A stretch of DNA of 40,168 nt from Paludibacter sp. (GTDB lineage: Bacteria; Bacteroidota; Bacteroidia; Bacteroidales; Paludibacteraceae): the NCBI RefSeq assembly GCF_009712605.1, contig NZ_WASO01000007.1, positions 1 to 40,168 on the forward strand, written 5' to 3'. The notes beneath the pieces were generated by a model that worked only from the letters and a program-made list of their open reading frames with translations, was not told where the DNA came from and ran no database searches. Made by a program: the position numbers and the translations under genes. Of the stretch, positions 1 through 25,555 are shown piece by piece; positions within the stretch are counted from its first letter, which is position 1, and the number at the start of each line of letters is the position of its first letter.

Positions 1-3000
1 GTTTGCTCATTCCACAGTCAGCTACCCAGTTTGCTGGTGCAAAGTCATTGGTCCATGTGATATTCCCACCACAGAGGTCACTGGCAGTAGCTCCGGCATG
101 ATTTGTCAACCATGTGTTGAAGTCAGTAGTATTACCGGCTCCGTCACATTCAACGCTCTTGTTCTGAGCGGCGGCTGTGATGTCGGGAGGCATATTGTCA
201 ATTACATTAATACTTTTTTGGCATGTCGACTGACAATTATGTGCATCAGTTATATTCAATGTCAATGTAAAGGAAGCATTACAGTTAAGTCCCGCTATTA
301 CCGTAACCGTCTTCGAATTAGAAGAACCTGAAATTGTTCCATTTCCATCAATTGACCAACTATATGTAGCCATTCCATCCGGAGCGGAATATACATTGGA
401 AGATGAAGGACAAACCATTTCGTTTTGTGCACTAATAAAACATGTCGGAGATGTATTATTAATCAGTACAACTTCGTCACTCGAAGGAGTGCAGGTGCCA
501 TTACTGATGGTCCAGCGCAAGGTCGCGCTGCTGCCTGACGGTATGCCTGTCACAGTAGATGTTGGCGACGACGGGGTTGTTATTGTAGCCGTTCCGCTTA
601 CAATGCTCCATACACCACGGCCCATAACGGGACTATTGCCGGCCAGCACGAAGCTGCCACTGTTGCAATTGCTCTGATCTTGTCCTGCATTGGCTACTGT
701 CGGCAGTGCATAAACGGTGACTGCAAGAGGTGTTCTATTTGAACTTATACATGATCCTGACGGTCCTTCGGCAACATAGTATGTTGTTGTTCCTGGAGTT
801 GCAGTTGATGGAGTCACACTTGTAGTCGGAGTTCCACCGGTCTGAGCTGTATAATAATAGAGCTGGTAGCCAGCAACTGAAGGTATTGCTGTTAATGGTG
901 TGGCAGCATCTCCCTGACAATAATTTGCCGGTGAGGTGGTCGGCACACTCGTTACGCTCGTTACGCTTATTGTGAAGTCAAATATGCAGGCATTTGTTCC
1001 CGGAGGAATGGCTTTGTAATGAATACTTCCAACTGTTGCCGGGAATGGATTGCTGATAGTGTATTCCACGGATTGATCGGCACTATAAAAACGTGAGCCG
1101 GGAGGAAAACTGCCCGAAACAGCCGTAATTGGAATTGTGTTATCGGTTAAATTGCAAAAAGCAATATCCTTAGTGGTTGATGTGCCCTGACAATGAGCAG
1201 CCACGTAAGCATCCCGATCTAAAATTATAGAAAGAGGTGTGGTTATTGGTTCTCCAATGCAACCTCCGGAAATTTCGTATCCCTGTATGAACTTTCCGTT
1301 TGAAAGTGTAGCTCCTGAGGTGGATCCAACTCCGGTTACGTTTCCATCAATAGTAATGGTTGGAGTACAGGAGGTGTTGCTTAAAATATAGCAGTCGGTA
1401 GTTGCTGTGAGTTTATAGCTCAGTTCTGCTAATAGTGTGTTTGGATCAGTTGGTTTTGGTAGATTCCCAATATTCCAGACCAATGATCCGGTAGCTCCCA
1501 GAGTGGGGTCAAACACAATTGAGTTGATGGCAGGAGAGAAATAAACATTATTAGAAACGCTTGCTAACGAGGTAGCTGTGTATGGCATTGGAATAACCAC
1601 CTGAGCGTTGTTAACGCCTTCGGTTCCCTTGTTGTAAATGGAAATTTTGTAAACTACGTCCTGACCGGGGACAACAGTTGGCGTGGTTCCCAGAGCTGCG
1701 CCATTGATACTTACAACAGCATTTAATGCTTGTACATCAGGAATGTAGGCATCAACTGCCATGGCGATACAGAAAATGATATAAGTATCCTGAGTAGAGC
1801 CATATTGGAATTTTGTTGATGTCTGATTATTAGTAATTACAGAATTATTCGAGTTCGGGATATTGAACATGTGGATATCTACGCCGGTATTGTTTGTGAT
1901 GTTGGGATTCCGGGTGTTGCCTCCTGTACTGATCGAAGAGTTGAAGAAATTACCTGTTGAGTTACTGGCATCACTTAAAGTGACCCAAGATGCAGTTTGC
2001 AATTGTTGAATTTTAAAATAGTCTCCGGAAATATCCAGGTCGCCTTCTCCCGCTGCTATACCTAGTTTAAGATTAACATTTCCGTTTTGAACAGTTTGAA
2101 AACCTGACACAGGAAGTTCATTACTGGCAGTTCCACCTATAACATAAGCATGTCCATCAAATACGGTTACGTCTCTCCATTTCATTTTTGAGTTTTCGTA
2201 GACCACAACCATTGTCCATCCGCCATACAATCCGGTTCCCCCTCCATCTCCTTCTTTCAGAGCCATATCTGCAACGGTATAAGTTCCCAGCCCGTGTTGC
2301 CGTACGTAATCAGTTACCTCGGCATAAGCAGAGTACATATATCCATAATTAGATGTTGGATAATAAATATCATTAGCATTGGCCGTTACGGTAGTATAAG
2401 ACGTTTCGCCCGGACCTTTAAATGAAAGCACATGTTTATCATAATTCTTTGTTATTGTTGTATAATTAGTTACTAAATAGATTGTGGTTCCGGAAACCGA
2501 ACAGTTATTTATGTCCGATTTTTTATCGGTTCTTGAATCGCGTGTTAAGCTTGTAACCTTAACGCTAGTACCATCACTACCAGTATAAACTGTTACAGCA
2601 TCAAATTTGGCCGTTGTAACATTGTTATTATTAGTAGAAGTATAGTGAGTCACACTGTTCCAGTTGCTATTATCGGTTGAATATTGAACATAAGGAACCG
2701 CATTATTAAACTTGAAGTACATGGTAGGTTTACCTGTTGCTGAAAAAACATACTGATAGTAATAACTGCCGGATGAGCCCTGTCTTGTTATTGCTACTGA
2801 ATAATCGGAATTGCTAACGCTCCCACCATTGCCTGTTACTGAAAATGTCCCATTAGTTAGAGTTGTTCCTGATACAACTTGCTTGCTTACGGTAAAAGTA
2901 TTCGGACTTGTTCCATCATCTGTTCTTCCTGTCCAATAAAGTCCTGCATAGATGATGTTAGAACACGAAGGTATTGCCCCATTTTCAGTAGAAAAAGTAA

Positions 3001-3310
3001 GATCGGCAGACGACGAATTAAATGTAGAAGGGTCGCCATCTACATCAACATACACCATATTGTTATTGCCGTTTTGTGAATTACGATCTGTTATTGATGG
3101 GTCAAGGGTAAGATTGGTATTCCCAATCATCGTAAAATCGCCCTTGATATTATATATTTTTTTTGTGGGAGTATATGAAGATGTTCTCTGCGTGAACGCT
3201 TTTAACACTTGCGCACTGGTGAATTGCGACAAACCGGCTATCATAACAATTGCCAAAACTATAGTTCTGGTCCAAATTGTTGATTTATTGGTGGGGTAAA
3301 ATGTTTTCAT
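1..3310 (-). CDS. Very large secreted Ig-like/DUF11-type repeat protein, 3' end outside window
   Basis: An unbroken reading frame of about 1,103 codons starts at the ATG at 3310-3308 and runs off the left edge, so the C-terminus is missing. Residues 1 to about 34 form a signal peptide ending FTSAQ. Residues of roughly 250-330 include a glycine-rich stretch and the sequence YGGWTMVVVYEN followed by VTVFDG, a motif I associate with large Bacteroidota surface proteins. About residues 515-640 look like a DUF11-type repeat (VVPGQDVVYKISIYNKG, VWNIGNL). From about 780 on there are Ser/Thr/Pro-rich Ig-like or PKD-like units with paired cysteines, ending in a CGGNITWTNDF-like HYR-type unit. The family is usually exported, often by the type IX system with a C-terminal sorting domain, which cannot be checked here. 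Likely a cell-surface or matrix protein; the ligand is unknown. Confidence 0.85.
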   Translation of the reverse strand, partial: MKTFYPTNKSTIWTRTIVLAIVMIAGLSQFTSAQVLKAFTQRTSSYTPTKKIYNIKGDFTMIGNTNLTLDPSITDRNSQNGNNNMVYVDVDGDPSTFNSSSADLTFSTENGAIPSCSNIIYAGLYWTGRTDDGTSPNTFTVSKQVVSGTTLTNGTFSVTGNGGSVSNSDYSVAITRQGSSGSYYYQYVFSATGKPTMYFKFNNAVPYVQYSTDNSNWNSVTHYTSTNNNNVTTAKFDAVTVYTGSDGTSVKVTSLTRDSRTDKKSDINNCSVSGTTIYLVTNYTTITKNYDKHVLSFKGPGETSYTTVTANANDIYYPTSNYGYMYSAYAEVTDYVRQHGLGTYTVADMALKEGDGGGTGLYGGWTMVVVYENSKMKWRDVTVFDGHAYVIGGTASNELPVSGFQTVQNGNVNLKLGIAAGEGDLDISGDYFKIQQLQTASWVTLSDASNSTGNFFNSSISTGGNTRNPNITNNTGVDIHMFNIPNSNNSVITNNQTSTKFQYGSTQDTYIIFCIAMAVDAYIPDVQALNAVVSINGAALGTTPTVVPGQDVVYKISIYNKGTEGVNNAQVVIPMPYTATSLASVSNNVYFSPAINSIVFDPTLGATGSLVWNIGNLPKPTDPNTLLAELSYKLTATTDCYILSNTSCTPTITIDGNVTGVGSTSGATLSNGKFIQGYEISGGCIGEPITTPLSIILDRDAYVAAHCQGTSTTKDIAFCNLTDNTIPITAVSGSFPPGSRFYSADQSVEYTISNPFPATVGSIHYKAIPPGTNACIFDFTISVTSVTSVPTTSPANYCQGDAATPLTAIPSVAGYQLYYYTAQTGGTPTTSVTPSTATPGTTTYYVAEGPSGSCISSNRTPLAVTVYALPTVANAGQDQSNCNSGSFVLAGNSPVMGRGVWSIVSGTATITTPSSPTSTVTGIPSGSSATLRWTISNGTCTPSSDEVVLINNTSPTCFISAQNEMVCPSSSNVYSAPDGMATYSWSIDGNGTISGSSNSKTVTVIAGLNCNASFTLTLNITDAHNCQSTCQKSINVIDNMPPDITAAAQNKSVECDGAGNTTDFNTWLTNHAGATASDLCGGNITWTNDFAPANWVADCGMSK

Positions 3311-3420
3311 ACGATAATAATTTAATTTTTAATAGTCGTATGAAACTCTATGTTGCCGTTTTATATTCTAGCGCTCGTTTTTGAGCAACATGTTCGTTTC
3401 ATAATAAATAAGTTTGGAAA

Positions 3421-3972
3421 TTATGAGAGAATTGACACCTTATAAATAACAGTAATTCCGGTGTTGGGCACAAATAGATTCTGAATGTCGCTTGCAGTCG
3501 TAGTGAATTCACTTATGAAAAGAACGTATTTCAGTTTTGTGAATCCGTTGAGAGTAGATAAATCAATTGAGAAATTCAGATCGGATGGACTTTTTAGCTT
3601 TACAATGATCATCTCCACCTCTGAAAATGCTGCATTCGTATCATTCAGTTTTGAAATATTACCGGCTTCTACAATGGCGCGAACCGGTTGAGATTCTCCG
3701 CTTACCCTTATATTCTCACCAATATATATGGTGGGCAGTGGTGCTGTAATAAGATTTTGAATGTAAATCCCTTCCGCAACTATTGCATTATCTCCGGAAG
3801 AGGACATGTTGTTCAGCATCTGGGTTGCTTCCTGAACTTGTTGAGCTTGTAAGCAGAACGGGATAAAAAAGGTAATAAGAGTGAGGAGTCCAATGATTTT
3901 CTTAAATCCACTTTTGTTTGAATTATGGGATGTAAATTCAAATCTTTCCTGGAGTAGAGTAGTCTTTTCCAT
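3421..3972 (-). CDS. Small exported hypothetical protein
   Basis: A 183-residue protein starting at the ATG at 3972. A hydrophilic stretch of about 24 residues precedes a hydrophobic segment (IIGLLTLITFFIPFCLQAQQ, about 26-45) that ends in LQAQQ, a typical Bacteroidota signal-peptide end. The mature part of about 140 residues has alternating hydrophobic patterns suggesting beta structure, with no cysteines and no motif I recognise. It lies 110 bp upstream of the giant secreted protein on the same strand, so the two may be co-expressed and co-exported. The long n-region is unusual but no later ATG is available. Function unknown. Confidence 0.7.
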   Translation of the reverse strand: MEKTTLLQERFEFTSHNSNKSGFKKIIGLLTLITFFIPFCLQAQQVQEATQMLNNMSSSGDNAIVAEGIYIQNLITAPLPTIYIGENIRVSGESQPVRAIVEAGNISKLNDTNAAFSEVEMIIVKLKSPSDLNFSIDLSTLNGFTKLKYVLFISEFTTTASDIQNLFVPNTGITVIYKVSILS

Positions 3973-5120
3973 GATGTATGTTTTTAATTTCTATCGAACG
4001 ATGAAATGCAGTAGAATTTTGTTAATCAACATTTAATTATAGGTCACCACAAGAGGTGATTTGCCACAATACAAGGTTTCACTTCAAAGGTAAATGTTGA
4101 CAATACTATTAAAAATGGTAAAACGACATAAATCGAGATACGTAAAAGTTGCAGTTCAAGCAGTGTGAAGTAAAAACATAAATGGGAAAATAATTTAGAC
4201 GTGACCTTTTATCAGCTAGATTTATACAACTAAATTTCAACGAGTTAAATTCAAGAAGCAGAAAAAGAGATCAATAAGGGGTGGTGTTTGGGTACTAGGG
4301 AAGTATGCAAATGGAGGACTTAGGTTAATTACTGATTGTCCATTTTTACATATATATTTTACAATCAATTATTTCTGATTATTATTTCTGACTATATAAA
4401 GAAGCCGGACAATGTTATTTTTGTGTTAATAAACCATATATTTTTGTTAGACAAATACAAACATCTTGTGATATGTATAATTTAAATATCATATAACTAC
4501 CGCCTTTACGAATAAACATGAGCAATGAGAATTTATTTTATTTATTCTGTCATGTAAAATTGCCGCAAATGCATATTACAAATTTAATTAACGTAAGAAA
4601 AATATGATATATTTGCTTATTCAAATATGTATATTTACATAAACAACAAGTAAAAACACTTGCTTTAGAATAAGTAAATAGTGGAAGTATTTATATTAAA
4701 ATCATATTCTTGCTTTCGTAATCCCACTATAATTAAAAACAAAACACCAACAGTTCATTCAGCAAACAATTGATAACGTTAATATTACACATTTATTCAT
4801 ATCAGAATAAAAGAAGCTGGTTTGTTCTTCAGATCTTTTGGTACAATAGGTACTTATCTAACCAAAATTATCAACTGAACTGCTACCGCAAAAGCGTTAA
4901 GAGTTGCAAGGATAACTAAATAGAATTTATCATTCCATTTGTATAAAATGGTCTTAAAAACTGGTTCTTTTGAACATACCCGATAGCATTTAATATAAAA
5001 ACGAAATTCATATACATTTTTCACATAATGAAGTTTTTGTTGCCTGGTTAAGTATGGAAAAAATGTATCAGAGAGAAAAATATAAATTGTTGAGATGAGA
5101 TCAACACAACTGATTGATTT
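3973..5120. other. 1.15-kb AT-rich region without a recognisable gene
   Basis: No reading frame with coding character was found on either strand. The stretch is very AT-rich, with many stops in all frames. It separates the leftward surface-protein genes from the rightward LuxR-type regulator and must carry both promoters. A 7-bp inverted repeat (ATATTTG, 6-nt spacer, CAAATAT) lies at 4609-4628 and overlaps a TAtaTTTG match at 4608-4615 on the plus strand. No RNA gene is recognised. Confidence 0.5.
4085..4092 (-). promoter_or_regulatory. Candidate -7 element for the minus-strand surface-protein genes
   Basis: On the minus strand this reads TAccTTTG, matching the Bacteroidota -7 consensus TAnnTTTG, about 112 bp upstream of the ATG at 3972. 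No clear -33 TTG is found at 19-21 bp, so the call is tentative. Confidence 0.35.
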
Positions 5121-17140: not shown

Positions 17141-17461
17141 ATGAAGTTACTTATCATAGCCTGCCTCGATGCAGACCGTCATACTGTTTCCAAACTATTG
17201 CAAAGTGCCGGAATCAATATTTTCAGCGTAAGCGAAACGACCGGTTATAAGCGCAACAACGGACAGCCCAACCTTCTCGACAACTGGTTTGGCAACCACA
17301 ATGCCGAGTTCGAATCAGCCCTCTTTTTCTGCTTTACAGATGACCTGAATGCTAAAAATGCGGTCGAAGTAATTGACCGCAGAAATGCCGACCAGCCGGA
17401 AAGGATGCCGTTACACGCATTTGTAATGCCGGTTGAAAATCAGACACAAGTAAGTCGTTGA
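17141..17461 (+). CDS. Small PII-like/ferredoxin-fold protein of the efflux operon
   Basis: 106 residues, with no signal peptide. The beta-alpha-beta start (MKLLIIACLDADRHTVSKLLQSAGI) and the second half (ESALFFCFTDDLNAKNAVEVIDRR) fit a PII-like or ferredoxin-like fold; the family is not identified with confidence. Lying 13 bp after the RND permease, it is probably co-transcribed. Small PII-like proteins beside RND pumps are known in other bacteria and might sense a ligand for the pump, but here that is an inference. Confidence 0.6.
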   Translation: MKLLIIACLDADRHTVSKLLQSAGINIFSVSETTGYKRNNGQPNLLDNWFGNHNAEFESALFFCFTDDLNAKNAVEVIDRRNADQPERMPLHAFVMPVENQTQVSR

Positions 17462-18362: not shown

Positions 18363-19043
18363 TCATCCCTTTTCACTAATCTGTTCCAGCAATTCCTTAT
18401 TGAGAATTGAAATTTCGCGTCCTTCCTGACGGATAATCCCCGTTGCATTGAATTCAGCCAAAATCCGGCTGATACTTTCTCGCGTTACTCCAATCCAGTC
18501 GCCCAACTCCTGACGGGAAAACGGAATCACAAACGAATCATTTTCATAAATATCGTTGGCCAGGTAGAGCAACGCATCAGCAACACGCCCGTTTGCCTGC
18601 TTTTGACCCAGATTGAGCGACACGTGGAAGTTATTCATCTCGCGCTGACTCAAAGCCGTGATGATTTGATAAGCAAAATCACCGTTTTCCACAATCAACT
18701 GCCTGAACGTGGACAATTCTATAAAGCAAGCCTCGGTCGGTTCCAGAGCGGTTGCCGTAAAGCGGTTAACTGACGCACCGAGCGAACTGGGTAAACATAG
18801 ATAGGATGGCGCTTTTGTCAAACGTAGAATCCGGTCTTTCGCCTGTGTGCAGGTATGAATTTTGACCAATCCGGATTTCAGATAAACCACTCCGGCATTG
18901 ATCGCATTTTCCTTAAAAATGGTCTCTCCGGGGTTGAACTTCACTTTAGAACAATGATTATGAAGCGATTCCAGGCCCTGATTCCTAAGGCAAATTTCAC
19001 TATCAGTGTGCAAAATACATTCGTTACAAAGTTTTTGAGACAT
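18363..19043 (-). CDS. FNR-like Crp/Fnr regulator with N-terminal cysteines
   Basis: 226 residues. The N-terminus carries Cys6, Cys9 and Cys18 (CNEC, then SEIC) with Cys31 next, a layout able to bind a [4Fe-4S] cluster as in FNR, though spacing differs from E. coli. The cyclic-nucleotide-binding-like domain covers about 25-140. The helix-turn-helix has ELGDWIGVTRESISRILAEF (about 178-197), with the E-SR recognition residues of FNR/CRP proteins. It is divergent from the DsrE2-TusA-Qmo operon, and the palindrome TGTGAT-N4-ATCACA lies 24 bp before its own start. Likely an anaerobiosis or redox sensor that controls the sulfur/Qmo operon and itself. Confidence 0.88.
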   Translation of the reverse strand: MSQKLCNECILHTDSEICLRNQGLESLHNHCSKVKFNPGETIFKENAINAGVVYLKSGLVKIHTCTQAKDRILRLTKAPSYLCLPSSLGASVNRFTATALEPTEACFIELSTFRQLIVENGDFAYQIITALSQREMNNFHVSLNLGQKQANGRVADALLYLANDIYENDSFVIPFSRQELGDWIGVTRESISRILAEFNATGIIRQEGREISILNKELLEQISEKG

Positions 19044-19236: not shown

Positions 19237-19785
19237 ATGGCAAACGAACTGGAAGCTCAGGTTCAGCTACTCGAAGCTCAACTGAAAAAACTGCAAAAAA
19301 ATCAACCGAAAGACCAACTTTCCATCATCGTCTTTTCCGGCGATCTGGACAAAGTGCTTGCTGCAATGATCATTGCCACCGGCGCACGGGCAATGGACAT
19401 GGAAGTGAAAATGTTCTTCACTTTCTGGGGTACGGCAATGTTGCGTGACAAGAATAAATCGCCAAAGGGCAAAGACTTCATGTCGAAAATGTTCGGATTC
19501 ATGCTGCCCAAAGGCAGTACCAAACTGAAACTCTCCAAACTCAACATGTGCGGTATGGGTACGGCAATGCTCAAAGATCTGATGAAAAAGAAAAATGTGG
19601 CTTCGTTGGAAGATTTAATCGCCACGGCTGCTGAATTCGGTGTTGAAATCTGCATCTGCGAAATGAGCATGAACCTCATGGGCTTCAAGAAAGAAGAGAT
19701 GATCGACTACCCGAACCTCTCGTATGTAGGCGTTGGCACCTATCTTTCTGATGCCGACGAAAGTAAAATACAGTTATTTATCTAA
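19237..19785 (+). CDS. DsrE2-like (DsrE/DsrF/DrsE_2) sulfur-carrier protein
   Basis: 182 residues: a short coiled-coil-like N-terminus (about 2-22, ELEAQVQLLEAQLKKLQK) and then the DsrE2 fold (LSIIVFSGDLDKVLAAMIIA, then FFTFWGTAMLR). Conserved cysteine candidates are Cys105 (LNMCGMG) and Cys139/Cys141 (EICICEMSMNLMG); Cys141 matches the family's ACxMSxxxMG position. DsrE2 proteins carry persulfide sulfur in transfer chains with TusA and rhodaneses, often as membrane-peripheral proteins. It heads an operon with TusA and a Qmo-like complex. No rhodanese is nearby. Confidence 0.88.
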   Translation: MANELEAQVQLLEAQLKKLQKNQPKDQLSIIVFSGDLDKVLAAMIIATGARAMDMEVKMFFTFWGTAMLRDKNKSPKGKDFMSKMFGFMLPKGSTKLKLSKLNMCGMGTAMLKDLMKKKNVASLEDLIATAAEFGVEICICEMSMNLMGFKKEEMIDYPNLSYVGVGTYLSDADESKIQLFI

Positions 19786-19804
19786 TTCAAAGATCTTGAT
19801 TTTT

Positions 19805-19966
19805 GACCTCTCCTCGCGACGACTTCGTGTCGGAGTCAGATATTAATCGTCTGACCCTAGCCCCTCTCCCTGAGAGAGGGGGATTAGGCGGCTAAACGAG
19901 TAACATTTCTATTTTCCACGGACGTGTTCCTCCTCTCCTTGGGAGAGGAGGTTAGGAGGAGAGGTC
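19805..19966. repeat. REP-like palindromic composite, family B
   Basis: Outer 11-bp inverted repeat GACCTCTCCTC (19805-19815) / GAGGAGAGGTC (19956-19966). Inside are hairpins GTCAGA/TCTGAC (near 19836-19855), CCCCTCTC/GAGAGGGG (19861-19881) and a 10-bp stem CCTCCTCTCC/GGAGAGGAGG (19929-19951). It lies between the DsrE2 and TusA genes, within the operon. Confidence 0.7.
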
Positions 19967-20007
19967 TGATATAATTATAAACCAATACATTTAATTACAA
20001 AATAATT

Positions 20008-20256
20008 ATGACAACAGAAGAATTGAAAGCACTGAAAAGCGATAAAGTAGTTGATGCACGTAGTATGGCATGTCCCGGTCCGCTGCTCGCGGCCAAAAAA
20101 GCGATCGGCGACGTGGACGAAGGTCAAATAATGGAAATCCTTTCGTCTGACGAAGGTACCAAAAGCGACATCCCAAAATGGTGCAGAAAACAAGAATTCG
20201 AATACCTCGGTTCCATCGACGAAGATGGAATCTATCGTCTTTTCCTCAAAAAATAA
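20008..20256 (+). CDS. tusA: TusA-family sulfur carrier
   Basis: 82 residues with the family signature ACPGPLLAAKKAI at about 21-33 and the persulfide-carrying Cys22 in CPGP; another cysteine is Cys59. TusA proteins accept sulfane sulfur from cysteine desulfurase or rhodanese and hand it to DsrE-type proteins or biosynthetic enzymes. Here it lies between DsrE2 and the Qmo-like genes, 6 bp before the FlpD-like gene. A role in feeding or receiving persulfide from the complex is inferred. A housekeeping role in tRNA thiolation is less likely in this context. Confidence 0.92.
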   Translation: MTTEELKALKSDKVVDARSMACPGPLLAAKKAIGDVDEGQIMEILSSDEGTKSDIPKWCRKQEFEYLGSIDEDGIYRLFLKK

Positions 20257-20262
20257 GCAGCT

Positions 20263-20646
20263 ATGCCAAAGATTTTGGTCTTCTCGACCGAAAAAATCTC
20301 CGATCCCGCGATTGACCTCGCGGGATTGTTGAAAAAGCACTATCCCTACACGGTCTACACCATCAGCGTTCCCTGCTCGAGTTGCATCAAGCCACGGTGG
20401 ATTATGCACGCTTACGAAAAAGGTTTCGACGGCGTATTCATTGCTGCCGACGGAAGCGATTGTTCGTACGGAGAATCGTGTTCCGACCGCACTGCCGAAG
20501 TGGTAGCCACCACACACCGTTTGATGAAAGAAAAAGGGCTGAAGCCTTCGCAACTGAAAATGGCGGCCATCTGTTCGGTTTGCGCAGAGCCGTTTGTGAA
20601 GCATATCACCTCGTTTATGAAAGATTTATCTCAAAAAGAGAATTAA
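20263..20646 (+). CDS. FlpD/MvhD-like hydrogenase iron-sulfur subunit protein
   Basis: 127 residues, a stand-alone version of the FlpD/MvhD domain (hydrogenase delta subunit family). Cysteines: Cys38 and Cys41 (PCSSC), Cys67 and Cys73 (DCSYGESC), Cys104 and Cys107 (ICSVC); the central GVFIAADGSDCSYGES matches the domain core. In MvhD the domain binds a [2Fe-2S] cluster and passes electrons to HdrA; in the QmoB of sulfate reducers a similar domain is the C-terminus. Here it is separate, 3 bp upstream of the QmoA-like gene. The partner is most likely the QmoB-like protein, which lacks this domain. Confidence 0.82.
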   Translation: MPKILVFSTEKISDPAIDLAGLLKKHYPYTVYTISVPCSSCIKPRWIMHAYEKGFDGVFIAADGSDCSYGESCSDRTAEVVATTHRLMKEKGLKPSQLKMAAICSVCAEPFVKHITSFMKDLSQKEN

Positions 20647-20649
20647 AAA

Positions 20650-21963
20650 ATGGAAATTCAGCAGGAAACCTGTATTAACGAATCGTTGTACGACGTACTG
20701 GTAATCGGTGCGGGAATTGCCGGTGAAGAATCGGCTCTTAAACTGGCCGACATGGGCTACCGGGTGTTGCTGGTGGAGAAAGAACCTTCCATCGGCGGCA
20801 AAATGATTTTGCTCAGCAAAGTATTTCCCACGCTCGATTGTGCCGCCTGTATCACCACTCCGAAAGTGTCGGAAACGGCTCGTCATCCCAATATTACCAT
20901 ACTCACGCTCACCGAAGTGGAGGAAATTGTGCGTGATACTAAAAACCGGTTTTCGGTAACGCTCAAAAAGAAACCCCGCTACGTGGTTGAAAAAGACTGC
21001 ACCGGATGTCAGGAGTGCGAAAAGGCGTGCCCGGCCATTGTCAATGACCAGTTCCAGTTTAATCTGACGGCACGCAAAGCGGTTTACATTCCTTTCACCA
21101 TCGCCAATCCTCGGGTGGCTTTGATCGACATCGACAATTGTCTGTTGTGCGGCGCCTGCGAAAAAGCATGTCCGTCCAATTGTATTGATTTCACGCAAAA
21201 GGAAGAGCAGTTGAAAATTACCGCAAAATCGGTAATCGTTTCTACCGGTTTCAAACTGTTCGATCCCATTCAGATAGAACGTTACGGTTTTGGACGTTAC
21301 AAAAACGTGATCACCTCCATGCAGATGGAACGTCAGTTGGCTCCTACCCGCCCGTTCAACAACATTCTGCGGCCTTCCGATGGCAAAGTTCCCGACAAAA
21401 TCGCCTATGTTTTCTGTGCCGGTTCGCGTGACCATACAGTAGGTAATCCAATCTGTTCACAGGTATGCTGCATGTATTCCACCAAACAGGCTCAACTCCT
21501 GATGGGTGCGTTGCCTATGGCCGATGTCTCGCTCTACTATATCAATATCCGGGCCTTTGGGAAGGGCTTCGACGAATTTTACGAACAGGCGAAAGACATG
21601 GGAGCAAAGTATGTGAAAGGAAAAATTGCCTCCATCACCGAAAAAGAAAACGGCAACCTGATTCTACGTTACGAAGATATTGCAACAGGCAAAGTGACCG
21701 AGAAAGAACACGATTTGGTGGTATTGTCGGTCGGTATTCTGGCCAATCCGGGCATTACCCGCGTGTTCAAAAAAGAACGACTGGAAACCGATGCGCTTAA
21801 TTACATCCGTCAGACGGATCTGCTGCAAAGTCCGGCCATCACCTCTATCGAAGGAGTATTTGCCGCCGGAACAGCTACCGCTCCGATGGATATTCCCGAC
21901 ACCATCATGTCCGCCGGAGCAGCAGCCACAGAAACATCAAGTTATTTAGCCAGATTGTCATGA
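20650..21963 (+). CDS. HdrA-like flavoprotein, QmoA-like
   Basis: 437 residues. Rossmann FAD motif GAGIAGEESALKLAD at about 20-34, then the HdrA-typical sequence TLDCAACITTPK (Cys64, Cys67). Two inserted [4Fe-4S] motifs: Cys117/120/123/127 and Cys164/167/170/174. A further cysteine group CAGSR...CSQVCC (Cys256, 269, 273, 274) is also HdrA-typical. It lacks the N-terminal HdrA domain, as QmoA proteins do. In sulfate reducers Qmo passes electrons between menaquinone and APS reductase; the soluble partner here is unknown. The stop overlaps the next start (ATGA). Confidence 0.87.
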   Translation: MEIQQETCINESLYDVLVIGAGIAGEESALKLADMGYRVLLVEKEPSIGGKMILLSKVFPTLDCAACITTPKVSETARHPNITILTLTEVEEIVRDTKNRFSVTLKKKPRYVVEKDCTGCQECEKACPAIVNDQFQFNLTARKAVYIPFTIANPRVALIDIDNCLLCGACEKACPSNCIDFTQKEEQLKITAKSVIVSTGFKLFDPIQIERYGFGRYKNVITSMQMERQLAPTRPFNNILRPSDGKVPDKIAYVFCAGSRDHTVGNPICSQVCCMYSTKQAQLLMGALPMADVSLYYINIRAFGKGFDEFYEQAKDMGAKYVKGKIASITEKENGNLILRYEDIATGKVTEKEHDLVVLSVGILANPGITRVFKKERLETDALNYIRQTDLLQSPAITSIEGVFAAGTATAPMDIPDTIMSAGAAATETSSYLARLS

Positions 21964-23894
21964 AGAAAAAAATAGGAGTTTACGTTTGCCACTGCGGAGG
22001 CAACATTTCCGACCATGTGGATATTGAAAAGGTGAAAGCTGCCGTGCGCGACGAAGCAGACGTCTATTTGGTAAAAAACACGCTTTTTGCCTGTGCCGAC
22101 TCTTCACAAAAAGAGATTGGCAGCGACATTGAAAATGAACATCTCGACGCCATCGTAGTGGCTTCCTGCTCACCCAAACTGCACCTCAACACTTTCCGTG
22201 GAGTAGCGCAACGTGCCGGGTTGAATCCTTACAACTACGTGCAGGTAAACATTCGCGAACAAAGTTCGTGGGCTCACTCCGACAACAAAACCGGCGCTAC
22301 CGAAAAGGCGATATTGCTGGTAAAAGCCGGTATCGCCAAAGCGAAAGAAAGTGAAGCACTTCAATCGCTCAAAATTCCTGCTGCCAATGTGGTGGCCGTC
22401 ATCGGAGCCGGTGTGGGTGGCATGAAAACAGCGATCGGTTTGGCCGACATGGGCACCGAAGTTTACCTCATCGAGAAAGATTTCTTTGTGGGGGGACGCA
22501 CTCCGCAATGGGGCACCGTCTCCCCGAACGGAGATGAAGGCGCTATTCTGACAGAAAAGCTCTACAAAGAGGTGGTTCGTCGTCCGAACATCACACTGTT
22601 TACCGGAGCCGAACTGGTTGAGAAATCGGGAAGCATCGGAAATTTCGATCTCAAAATTGCTCTTCGGCCCCGTTTTGTTTCGGGCAATCCGAGCACAGAA
22701 GCGATGCAACGCGCAGCAGAAGCTTGTCCGGTTGCGGTGAAAGATGATTTCAATTTCGGATTAACCAACCGGAGGGCGTTTATGCTCCCCGCACAAGGAC
22801 AGTTTCCTCAGGTTCCAGCTATCGACCAATCAGCCTGCACCCGCTGTGGAGAATGCACCGCCGCTTGTCACGAAGTGGATCTGACACAAGAAGTGCAAAC
22901 AATTACGCTGCATGTGGGTGCCTTTGTGGTCAATACCGGTTTCGATCCGTATCAACCTGCCCAAGGTGAATACGGCTACGGAGAATTGGACAACGTCATC
23001 ACGCTTCCTCAGTTCCGCCGTTTGATGGAGATGAATGAAAGCGAACTGGTTTTCAACGGAAAAAAAATTAAGAAAATCGCATATATTTATTGTGTCGGCA
23101 GTCGGCAGGACGACGATGAAGGAAATACCTATTGCTCGCGTTACTGCTGTACGGCAACTTCACTGACGGCAGTCCTTGCTAAAAAGAAGTTCGGCAATAT
23201 CATCAATTTCCATTTCAACCGCGGAATCCGCACATACGGAAAACACGAACTGGTTTACGAAGCTGCGTCGAAACAAGGCGATATTTTCCTTCAGTTTTCA
23301 CTGAAGAGTATTCCGCAAATCGAAAAGCGCGGTAACAAAACCTACGTTAAAGTCAAAGATATTCTTACTGCCGGCAAAGAGCTGGAAACGGAAGCCGATC
23401 TGATTGTGTTGGTTACCGGCATGGTTCCCCGCAAGAATGAGTTATTGGCGCAACAGCTCAAAATCCCAACCGGTCGCGATCATTTCTTCAACGAAATTCA
23501 CATGAAACTTCGTCCGGTAGAAACGGTGATCGACGGCGTATTGATTGCAGGAACCTGCCAATCGCCGAAGAATATTTTGGAAACGGTTAATTCGTCGATG
23601 GCGGCAGCAGCCAAAATCAATTCGGTACTGACCAAAGGCGAACTGTCGCTCGAACCTACACTAGCCAAGGTAAATCCGGCAGCCTGCGACTGGTGCGACA
23701 ACTGCTCGAAGGCCTGCCCTTTTGATGCCATCCTGCAAACAGAGATCAATGGCAAAAAAGTGGCACGCGTCAACGAATCCAACTGCAAAGGTTGCGGTAT
23801 GTGCACACCGGTTTGCCCGACCGACGCCATCGATTTGGCTGGTTATACCAATGCCCAGGTCGAGTCGATGATTGATGCTCTTGCAGAAGCGTAA
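21960..23894 (+). CDS. HdrA-like flavoprotein with C-terminal ferredoxin, QmoB-like
   Basis: 644 residues. HdrA N-terminal domain (GVYVCHCGGN, about 6-15), FAD motif GAGVGGMKTAIGLADMG at about 149-165, a [4Fe-4S] set at Cys293/296/299/303, the CVGSR...YCSRYCC group (about 388-397), and a C-terminal 2x[4Fe-4S] ferredoxin: Cys576/579/582/586 and Cys609/612/615/619. This resembles QmoB, except that the C-terminal MvhD domain is absent and occurs as the separate gene upstream. FAD and several clusters could allow electron bifurcation or confurcation, which the sequence cannot prove. Overlaps the QmoA-like gene by 4 bp. Confidence 0.87.
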   Translation: MKKKIGVYVCHCGGNISDHVDIEKVKAAVRDEADVYLVKNTLFACADSSQKEIGSDIENEHLDAIVVASCSPKLHLNTFRGVAQRAGLNPYNYVQVNIREQSSWAHSDNKTGATEKAILLVKAGIAKAKESEALQSLKIPAANVVAVIGAGVGGMKTAIGLADMGTEVYLIEKDFFVGGRTPQWGTVSPNGDEGAILTEKLYKEVVRRPNITLFTGAELVEKSGSIGNFDLKIALRPRFVSGNPSTEAMQRAAEACPVAVKDDFNFGLTNRRAFMLPAQGQFPQVPAIDQSACTRCGECTAACHEVDLTQEVQTITLHVGAFVVNTGFDPYQPAQGEYGYGELDNVITLPQFRRLMEMNESELVFNGKKIKKIAYIYCVGSRQDDDEGNTYCSRYCCTATSLTAVLAKKKFGNIINFHFNRGIRTYGKHELVYEAASKQGDIFLQFSLKSIPQIEKRGNKTYVKVKDILTAGKELETEADLIVLVTGMVPRKNELLAQQLKIPTGRDHFFNEIHMKLRPVETVIDGVLIAGTCQSPKNILETVNSSMAAAAKINSVLTKGELSLEPTLAKVNPAACDWCDNCSKACPFDAILQTEINGKKVARVNESNCKGCGMCTPVCPTDAIDLAGYTNAQVESMIDALAEA

Positions 23895-23946
23895 TCAAAT
23901 AAAGAAACGAGTATATGATGTTTTGCCTAATGGCTTGAAAAGCCCC

Positions 23947-24098
23947 ATTTTCATAACCGCAGGTCTGTGACCTGCGGGCGAGCATAGCTTGAACTCACAC
24001 GACCTGAAAGGTCGGACTATACGAGAAGTAATGCCTTTCAGGCATAGAAGAACGGGGACTTGACAACCCGTAAGCCAATGGCTTACGGTTATGAAAAT
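23947..24098. repeat. REP-like symmetric element of four hairpins, family C
   Basis: Flanked by a 13-bp inverted repeat ATTTTCATAACCG (23947-23959) / CGGTTATGAAAAT (24086-24098). Inside are a 9-bp hairpin CCGCAGGTC/GACCTGCGG (23957-23977), 6-bp hairpins CGACCT/AGGTCG (24000-24014) and ATGCCT/AGGCAT (24031-24045), and a 9-bp hairpin CCGTAAGCC/GGCTTACGG (24068-24088). The mirrored 9-6-6-9 layout, all with 3-nt loops, is typical of REP doublets. The element fills the 267-bp gap between the QmoB-like and the winged-helix-like genes; otherwise that gap holds no gene. Confidence 0.8.
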
Positions 24099-24161
24099 GA
24101 CGTCTTTCAGACGACATAAACTCAATTAGGAGACATATCAGATAATCATTATAAAGAAATC

Positions 24162-24440
24162 ATGGAAGCAAAACAGAAAACAATCGATATAATCAAGCAA
24201 ACGCGGAAAGCTGCCCCCGAAGCGTTCGAAGCCCGGAAGCTTTATCTGAAAATGCGCAAAGCTATTGCCGAGGCGTTGAAAGATGAACCCAAAACTATTC
24301 CGCAGGTTGCCGAAGCGACGAATATTCCCATCGGAGAGGCCACTTACTACATGATGGCTATGCTGAAATTCGGCGAGCTATCCGTCAACGGCATCGACGA
24401 TATGGACGAGTACTATTTTTACGAACTGAAAAAGGCATAA
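24162..24440 (+). CDS. Small winged-helix-like protein of the Qmo-like operon
   Basis: 92 residues, highly charged, without cysteines or membrane segments. The middle (KTIPQVAEATNIPIGEATYYMMAMLKFGELSVNG) resembles a winged helix, and the end is acidic and aromatic (GIDDMDEYYFYELKK). It lies 5 bp before the QmoC-like gene and is therefore probably part of the same operon. A small subunit or assembly factor is as likely as a DNA-binding protein. I do not assign a family. Confidence 0.7.
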   Translation: MEAKQKTIDIIKQTRKAAPEAFEARKLYLKMRKAIAEALKDEPKTIPQVAEATNIPIGEATYYMMAMLKFGELSVNGIDDMDEYYFYELKKA

Positions 24441-24445
24441 GAACC

Positions 24446-25555
24446 ATGACACAGATACAACCCGAACTGACTGAAGATATAAAAAAATACGGAGCGTTCG
24501 ATTTTACGGCTTGCTACAACTGCGGTAATTGTACGGCAGTATGCAACCTAACGGAAAAGAATTCCAATTTTCCGCGCATGATGGTACGTTATTCCATGTT
24601 GGGACTGAAAGAAGAGATTCTGTCGAGCAAAGAACTCTGGATGTGTTATGCCTGCGGAGAATGTAGCGATACCTGCCCGCGCGAGGCCGGCCCAGGCGTT
24701 CTGATGTCCAACCTGCGCCGCTATGCCATTGCCAATTACGAAAAGACAGGACTCACCCGCCTGATGTTCAAAAACAATCCGTTCTTTATTGCCATCACAC
24801 TGATTTTGGCCGTAGTGCTGGCGTTTTTCCTGCTCACCATCAAACCCGATACTGAAGTGGCACGCTGGCTTTTCCGCTACGTGCCTTACGAGGTATTGCA
24901 CAGTTTCGGCATGGGCGCTTTTGCCTTGATGGGACTTTCGGCATTCGTTGGAGTCGTAGTGATGTGGCGTCACATTGGTAAAGAGAAGAAAATTGCTTTT
25001 ACAGGAGAATTCTTCAAAAAAGCGGTCAATGCAGCCAAAAAGGTAATCGGTGAAGTTGCAACCTTGAAACGGTATCAAAATTGCGACAGCGACAGCTCTA
25101 TCTGGAGCAAAAAGGCGGTTTGGTTACGCCCATGGTTTGTTCACTGGACGATTATGTGGGGATTTATCGGTCTGCTGGTAGCCACTACACTCGATTTTAT
25201 CTTCAAAGATCCGGCAACAACCATCTGGTGGCCGTCTCGAATTTTGGGCACGATTGCCGGAATTCTGATGGTGTACGGATCAACGGTGGCGCTCAACTAT
25301 CGATTCCGCAAGATAACCAAAACCTATGCCAATACCTTGATGGCCGACTGGATGTTCCTCGGATTCCTATGGTTGGCAGGCATCACCGGGTTCTGGCTGG
25401 AAATTGCCGTTGCGATGGGAGCCGATCTGTTCATCAACCACGTTGTACTCATGATCCACATCATTATCTCGATGGAATTGGTCATCCTTTTTGCCTTCTC
25501 AAAATTTGCACATGCCTTTTATCGCCCGCTGGCATTGTTCATGCATAACCTCTAA
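24446..25555 (+). CDS. QmoC-like fusion: HdrC iron-sulfur domain plus membrane cytochrome b
   Basis: 369 residues. The N-terminal HdrC-type domain has Cys23/26/29/33 and Cys67/70/73/77 for two [4Fe-4S] clusters. From about residue 110 the protein has about five to six membrane helices of the NarI/HdrE/DsrM type, with histidines able to bind heme b (near 152, 226, and in FINHVVLMIHIIIS). This fused layout is that of QmoC, which exchanges electrons with menaquinone. It is the last gene of the operon and the only integral-membrane one, so it should anchor the complex. Confidence 0.87.
   Translation: MTQIQPELTEDIKKYGAFDFTACYNCGNCTAVCNLTEKNSNFPRMMVRYSMLGLKEEILSSKELWMCYACGECSDTCPREAGPGVLMSNLRRYAIANYEKTGLTRLMFKNNPFFIAITLILAVVLAFFLLTIKPDTEVARWLFRYVPYEVLHSFGMGAFALMGLSAFVGVVVMWRHIGKEKKIAFTGEFFKKAVNAAKKVIGEVATLKRYQNCDSDSSIWSKKAVWLRPWFVHWTIMWGFIGLLVATTLDFIFKDPATTIWWPSRILGTIAGILMVYGSTVALNYRFRKITKTYANTLMADWMFLGFLWLAGITGFWLEIAVAMGADLFINHVVLMIHIIISMELVILFAFSKFAHAFYRPLALFMHNL

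Follow-up and report, generated by a model that had tools for sequence, protein, structure and literature searches.

We describe here a conserved operon for a putative Qmo-like complex found in a 40,168-nucleotide stretch of DNA from Paludibacter sp. (contig NZ_WASO01000007.1, positions 1 to 40,168), the whole of which is referred to below as the window. Seven genes in a single run on the plus strand (19237-25555) encode, in this order, a DsrE2-like sulfurtransferase, the sulfur carrier TusA, a stand-alone FlpD/MvhD protein, a QmoA-like and a QmoB-like protein, a small winged-helix protein, and a QmoC-like membrane subunit. With a probability of roughly two in three, we read these products as a membrane-bound heterodisulfide reductase (Hdr)-type flavin and iron-sulfur complex which would carry out redox chemistry between quinone and sulfane sulfur, in one direction or the other.

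Conservation of the operon

The gene set is a conserved operon. Its least generic part, the 92-amino-acid winged-helix protein, was used to query a draw of 295 genomes of the order Bacteroidales and gave 57 matches in 55 of them, spanning 45 of the 184 genera; within the family of the Paludibacter sp. itself, the operon was found in only one of four drawn genomes. We inspected the surroundings of 56 matches, covering all 55 genomes (the remaining match, G154 C474, lies outside this set), and all 56 adjoin qmoB and/or qmoC, with several contigs ending inside the operon.

A preliminary description of the window had proposed a search for this gene order across Bacteroidota, and the order recurs in 110 distinct loci with qmoA. 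These loci were selected by similarity to the winged-helix protein or QmoA (two by a QmoC match), so that the counts characterize the family rather than sample it without bias; each gene was scored only where the contig extends far enough, and three loci without a full qmoA (L037, L040, and L066) and 15 further loci were left out. The tusA gene is present in 101 of 102 loci, a DsrE-type gene of either kind in 93 of 99, qmoB in 103 of 103, and qmoC in 98 of 99, with flpD directly upstream in 104 of 104. The winged-helix gene is scored in 98 of 102 loci, a count that marks L074 as lacking it, although L074 has a fusion of QmoB with the winged helix.

Among named genomes, the loci closest by QmoA belong to Paludibacter sp. 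and to Bacteroidota metagenome-assembled genomes (80 to 84% identity). The best 80 loci of the QmoA alignment scan include 74 titled Bacteroidota, the isolates Prolixibacter denitrificans and Seramator thermalis being among these. The other six are three Chlorobi/Chlorobiota and one each of Krumholzibacteriota, Aminicenantes, and Anaerolineae, titles which may be wrong labels where they belong to metagenome-assembled genomes. A draw of 395 genomes of the phylum gave 12 matches to the winged-helix profile, strong only in the Paludibacter genome, G333, and G551. The latter two carry tusA-flpD-qmoA-qmoB-qmoC, with the winged-helix gene annotated in L192 and found by the profile at the equivalent place in G333. 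A search for plasmid copies yielded just two distant matches of 36 to 38% identity.

In the window, all seven genes lie on one strand where the preliminary description had placed them, and domain matches back their identities. Their names hold at the level of family domains, whereas DsrE2 and QmoC do not qualify as NCBIfam equivalogs, scoring 79 bits against a cut-off of 210 (NF047629) and 182 bits against 300 (NF038018), respectively. Spacing is tight between tusA and flpD (6 nucleotides), flpD and qmoA (3 nucleotides), qmoA and qmoB (a 4-nucleotide overlap), and the winged-helix gene and qmoC (5 nucleotides). Two gaps are long, measuring 222 nucleotides between dsrE2 and tusA (19786-20007) and 267 nucleotides between qmoB and the winged-helix gene (23895-24161), and the first of them contains palindromic repeats at two places (19863-19879 and 19932-19948; four strand matches against 0.15 expected). 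Both gaps are short in the relative L106 (17 and 12 nucleotides, respectively), and small repeat elements have therefore probably been inserted in the window operon.

Divergently upstream of the operon lies a gene for a Crp/FNR-family regulator (18363-19043, minus strand) with HTH_Crp_2 and cNMP_binding domains, which reaches no NCBIfam cut-off. Of the 87 loci where this could be tested, 61 have a relative of it in the same divergent upstream position. Among 65 divergent relatives, Cys6 is kept in 64 of 64, Cys9 in 63 of 64, Cys106 in 64 of 65, and Cys31 in 42 of 64, and the regulator may carry an FNR-like cluster. Farther upstream, a small P-II-like protein (17141-17461, under the Pfam cut-off) follows a resistance-nodulation-division (RND) efflux gene, and an RND efflux and P-II-like pair of similar kind is located downstream of the operon in L054.

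Relation of the flavoproteins to HdrA and canonical Qmo

To judge from their motifs and domains, the QmoA-like and QmoB-like proteins look like complementary, reduced copies of HdrA. The QmoA-like protein (20650-21963; NF040770, 482 bits) corresponds to the HdrA core, with a flavin adenine dinucleotide (FAD) motif and two 4Fe-4S motifs (at 117 and 164); it aligns to positions 140 to 560 of the 777 of NF040770 and is without the N-terminal domain and the C-terminal ferredoxin of HdrA. The QmoB-like protein (21960-23894; NF040770, 557 bits) has the full-length HdrA form, being composed of an N-terminal domain, an FAD motif, one 4Fe-4S motif in an insert (293), and two at the C-terminus (576 and 609). 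Of 108 aligned rows, about 30 (L036 and L164 among them) lack the insert stretch altogether.

In a tree of 44 HdrA-type proteins, nearly all rows of which come from one phylum, the operon QmoA and the operon QmoB each form a clade of their own (support 100/99 and 100/100, respectively), whereas canonical QmoA and QmoB group together and are separated by a 100/99 branch from both of these clades and from the HdrA rows. The operon QmoB joins four HdrA rows weakly (86/83), and the 1,015-amino-acid HdrA of G551 adjoins the operon QmoA (97/93). Constraining the operon QmoA to group with canonical QmoA costs 45 log units (approximately unbiased test, P = 7.8e-5), and the same constraint for QmoB costs 29 log units (P = 0.0055); both test the idea of the preliminary description but were run after the tree was seen. 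The nearest of the compared references by BLAST is, for both window proteins, the HdrA of the Paludibacter genome, with 309 bits (40% identity) for QmoA, compared with 215 to 255 bits to canonical QmoA, and 377 bits (37% identity) for QmoB, compared with 96 to 131 bits to canonical QmoB. Within the sequences compared, these results show a history of the operon proteins apart from canonical Qmo. They also suggest more than one origin of Qmo-like quinone complexes from HdrA, and matches to "qmo" alone should therefore not be read as sulfate metabolism.

The preliminary description had interpreted the operon as a Qmo built from split parts, with FlpD separated from QmoB. FlpD is indeed fused to the C-terminus of canonical QmoB (residues 618 to 743 in L189, a locus from a genome of the phylum, perhaps that of a green sulfur bacterium) and is a separate gene here, the domain scan finding no FlpD domain in the window QmoB. 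The quinone-type complex, the separate FlpD, the sulfur carriers, and the lack of APS (adenosine 5'-phosphosulfate) reductase in that interpretation are all supported, whereas the split origin is not, the trees setting QmoA and QmoB apart from canonical Qmo, on the HdrA side. As FlpD is also separate in the HdrA-MvhD operon of the Paludibacter genome, no split need be invoked.

The three subunit types shared with Qmo, including the QmoC-like membrane subunit, raise the question of whether the operon has the canonical Qmo function and serves as electron partner to an APS reductase whose genes lie elsewhere. We regard this as highly improbable, and not only by reason of the rejected common clades with canonical QmoA and QmoB. 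Searches of the whole Paludibacter genome, whose completeness of 97.8% makes absences strong but not absolute, gave no match to AprA (AprB was not searched for), ATP-sulfurylase (Sat), the NIR_SIR sulfite reductase domain, which we take to be the one carried by DsrAB, or molybdopterin oxidoreductase. The absence of aprAB, sat, and dsrAB, which the preliminary description had remarked on, thus extends genome-wide for AprA, Sat, and NIR_SIR. Control genomes were positive for PF01077 (11 of 14), PF00384 (11 of 14), and PF01747 (5 of 14); for AprA, no control genome exceeds the cut-off, but 18 of the 295 order genomes do. Of the two PF02910 matches in the Paludibacter genome, we read one as an SdhA-type protein, and the other is L-aspartate oxidase.

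Furthermore, G176 and G007 encode aprBA followed by a complete canonical qmoABC, in addition to this operon (L241 and L069, respectively), and since both are found in the same two genomes, they are distinct, coexisting systems. G098 has at least qmoA beside aprA before its contig ends, plus this operon (L053), and in G103, another genome of the order with aprA, the contig ends just after aprA. No NIR_SIR match was found in any of these four genomes. Three loci in genomes of the order (L231, L232, and L233) carry aprBA with canonical qmo, a sulfate/sulfite branch without DsrAB.

The winged-helix protein (24162-24440) has no match in Pfam or NCBIfam. AlphaFold predicts a winged-helix fold (predicted local distance difference test score, 90.8), for which the best Foldseek match is NolR (PDB ID 4omz; E value, 9.3e-4), followed by MarR and SmtB folds. 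The protein is fused to the C-terminus of QmoB in nine loci (L070 to L075 and L253 to L255), which favors a role as a subunit over that of a free regulator. An ordinary DNA-binding regulator is less likely in view of these fusions and of the position of the 56 inspected matches (of 57), all beside qmoB or qmoC, and we conclude that the winged-helix protein is probably a subunit of the complex.

Seven of the nine fusion loci (L070, L071, L073, L075, L253, L254, and L255) have a QmoA of 914 to 921 amino acids, and no QmoA of this length was seen in loci without the fusion. Domains were annotated in L073, where QmoA (2058-4802) contains an inserted Fer4_20 plus Pyr_redox_2 module resembling GltD/NfnB, and the other six long QmoA proteins probably have the same insert. 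A pattern for a motif of the type binding NAD(P) (nicotinamide adenine dinucleotide or its phosphate) was applied to four of these QmoA proteins and matched those of L071, L073, and L075 but not that of L070. A branch to NAD(P)H is plausible in members with the GltD/NfnB-like insert.

The stand-alone FlpD (20263-20646; FlpD domain, 90 bits) keeps Cys38, Cys67, Cys73, Cys104, and Cys107 in 104 of 104 sequences; its tree carried a long-branch warning and was not used. A second FlpD is encoded elsewhere in the Paludibacter genome (L003, 7899-15925), in an apparent hdrC-hdrB-hdrA-mvhD operon followed by Flx-like iron-sulfur and flavin genes, a reading based on a family model for the FlpD and on the open reading frames for the rest.

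The QmoC-like subunit (24446-25555) combines two 4Fe-4S motifs with a NarI-like domain. Its low NF038018 score contrasts with those of the canonical controls L189 (497 bits) and L232 (384 bits). Eight cysteines are present in 102 of 102 sequences, and the conserved histidines, His233 (100 of 100), His356 (100 of 100), His338 (95 of 100), and His152 (82 of 102), are possible heme b ligands. QmoC occurs in two kinds across the loci; that of the window is of the first kind, but L106 and L036, the closest relatives of its QmoA in the tree, have a QmoC of the second, and the membrane subunit was therefore probably exchanged. We considered whether the low-scoring kind (about 170 bits) is a soluble HdrCB; sequences and tree indicate a QmoC-type protein of the second kind.

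Sulfur carriers and the proposed direction of electron flow

The link to sulfur carriers, already drawn in the preliminary description, is borne out by the near-constant presence of tusA and a DsrE-type gene and by invariant cysteines. TusA (20008-20256; TusA domain, 73 bits) has Cys22 in 101 of 101 sequences. The DsrE2-like protein (19237-19785; PF13686, DrsE_2, 181 bits), with PDB ID 3pnx as the nearest solved sequence (E value, 1.9e-33), has Cys141 in 57 of 57 and Cys105 in only 14 of 57. These invariant cysteines fit working sulfur carriers. Some loci add a YedE sulfur transporter, rhodaneses, and a porin upstream. A YedE type of about 404 amino acids, counted by hand from open-frame lengths among the matches listed (to an E value of about 2e-20), marks 13 of the 55 genomes with the operon but just 2 of the 240 without it (Fisher test, P = 7e-9). 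Two of the 13 (G033 and G287) were counted from shorter frames close to the end of a contig, and the 2 carriers without the operon (G187 and G253) are genomes of 81% and 66% completeness.

In the mechanism that we propose, sulfane sulfur would arrive at TusA/DsrE2 as persulfide, and these carriers may dock on the complex. The operon products presumably form one complex, for which the fusions support the pairing of QmoB with the winged-helix protein, and menaquinone and heme b are the putative partners of QmoC. Electrons would be exchanged between the menaquinone pool and the persulfide via FAD and iron-sulfur clusters, along a path that might lead from the hemes and clusters of QmoC over the QmoA clusters, FAD, and the QmoB clusters to FlpD. 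FlpD or the GltD-like part would be a second electron entry, and flavin-based confurcation could be part of the scheme. In the reductive version, the persulfide would be reduced to sulfide in a menaquinone-linked reaction serving as an anaerobic electron sink. We place this version a little short of an even bet; it is the favored direction because most hosts of the operon are fermentative anaerobes and the majority of those tested are without the sulfite-using enzymes searched for (of 40 operon genomes, 3 gave a match to NIR_SIR and 4 a match to AprA above the cut-off).

Several points weigh against the proposed complex and its reductive direction. The midpoint potential of menaquinone is about -74 mV and that of S0/HS- about -270 mV, and by these values menaquinol alone is too weak a donor. 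As persulfide reduction by menaquinol alone is uphill, the reaction would have to draw on the proton motive force or on another donor, either NAD(P)H or ferredoxin, entering via FlpD or the GltD-like insert. Among the proteins of the operon, the domain scan detected no catalytic subunit of the HdrB (CCG) type, and the parts of the literature available to us contain no report of sulfur reduction by a host of the operon. DsrE2 proper is not universal, many loci having in its stead a DsrE-type protein that is less closely related and about 140 amino acids long, which has its own cysteine (Cys98 in L160) in 52 of 52 sequences. The YedE family as a whole was considered as a partner and rejected, being present in 139 of the 295 genomes, 28 of 55 with the operon and 111 of 240 without, and the Paludibacter genome has no YedE (PF04143) match at all. 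Its five rhodanese stretches are all on contigs other than that of the operon and are possible as a sulfane source or as a rival persulfide reductase. They include a 759-amino-acid coenzyme A-disulfide-reductase-like protein with three rhodanese domains (L239, 2821-5100, minus strand), which could reduce persulfides without this complex.

Electrons might instead flow the other way, as in an sHdr-like oxidation of TusA/DsrE2-bound sulfane sulfur towards sulfite, with delivery to menaquinone (and NAD+), either alone or as the oxidative arm of a disproportionation. Menaquinone is a downhill acceptor for such electrons. In the sulfur oxidizer Metallosphaera cuprina, DsrE/TusA genes are flanked by a heterodisulfide-reductase-like cluster, as stated in the part of PMC4175335 available to us. 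AprA over the cut-off is somewhat commoner with the operon (7 of 55 genomes compared with 11 of 240 others, G075, whose aprA is split into two pieces that each stay under the cut-off, being counted as without), but the association is not significant (Fisher test, P = 0.053), and two of the aprBA loci have their own complete canonical qmoABC. AprA over the cut-off is absent in 36 of the 40 operon genomes tested, and neither an HdrB/CCG nor a lipoate-binding protein is found among the ten window proteins scanned. On balance, we judge the oxidative alternative unlikely.

Still lower stands a role in redox balance or detoxification, in which the complex would control persulfide and thiol pools or feed sulfur to biosynthesis without conserving energy. 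The Crp/FNR-family regulator beside the operon and the patchy spread over 45 of 184 genera are compatible with such a role, and persulfide carriers are common to biosynthesis, too. For mere balance, however, a complex of seven genes that includes a quinone-type membrane subunit would be costly, and the 240 of 295 order genomes without a winged-helix match indicate that the operon is not needed for basic sulfur assimilation. We therefore consider this role improbable.

Returning to the quinone-to-sulfane-sulfur complex, its most far-reaching form would be a respiratory complex class of its own, built on HdrA duplication and a winged-helix subunit and independent of canonical Qmo. Such a class would link menaquinone, together with a low-potential or NAD(P)H branch via FlpD or the GltD-like insert, to the reduction of protein-bound persulfide. 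About one-fifth of Bacteroidales genomes would then encode a respiration of sulfane sulfur in the cytoplasm that dispenses with Dsr, Apr, and molybdenum enzymes; we advance it tentatively and hold it to be rather doubtful. If the complex does work between quinone and sulfane sulfur, the Bacteroidales hosts (55 of the 295 genomes drawn) have an unrecognized sulfur electron sink or source, and surveys of dsr, apr, sox, or psr genes overlook such sulfur metabolism.

Comparison with known systems

We found no description of this gene order among the open-licence PubMed Central papers listed, by their titles and the starts of their abstracts, and nothing on the operon in the available parts of PMC12142623 and PMC10266427. 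The closest namesake, canonical (type I) QmoABC of sulfate reducers and green sulfur bacteria, shares the two HdrA-derived flavoproteins, an FlpD module, and a QmoC-type subunit, but has FlpD fused to QmoB, aprBA as neighbors, and a separate clade. In Thermosulfurimonas dismutans, where Qmo/Hdr was proposed to act in sulfur oxidation, qmoABC lies beside aprBA with the MvhD-like domain on QmoB, as given in the part of PMC4911364 available to us.

The soluble HdrABC-MvhD and Flx-HdrABC complexes have in common with the operon an HdrA core and a stand-alone FlpD/MvhD. Here, the operon has no HdrB, a membrane QmoC takes its place, and HdrA is present as two partly reduced copies; HdrABC proper was rejected as an identity for the operon on account of the lacking HdrB. 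The sHdr system of sulfur oxidation likewise combines Hdr-like proteins with TusA/DsrE carriers (PMC4175335, in part), whereas the window operon, within a scan covering the window, has no HdrB or lipoate-binding protein but does have a quinone-type membrane subunit. The YTD cluster of sulfur disproportionators consists of yedE, tusA, dsrE, and conserved hypothetical genes in the parts of PMC12998232 and PMC9751629 available to us. TusA and DsrE-type genes are common to both, and some relatives of the operon, such as L126, also have yedE; the differences are that the Paludibacter genome has no yedE and that the core of the operon is made of Hdr/Qmo-type genes.

The nearest known relative by description is type II QmoABC, which was described as HdrA-like and of unknown role by Neukirchen et al. 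in 2023 (PMC10504309); the part of this paper available to us also holds that type II Qmo-like complexes arose separately from HdrA. The organisms named there are Vulcanisaeta moutnovskia and Ammonifex degensii, and that part speaks of neither a TusA/DsrE operon nor a winged-helix subunit. The feature of QmoA- and QmoB-like proteins closer to HdrA than to canonical Qmo is found here as well, and the operon, compared with type II Qmo by description only, may be a large, sulfur-carrier-linked branch of it.

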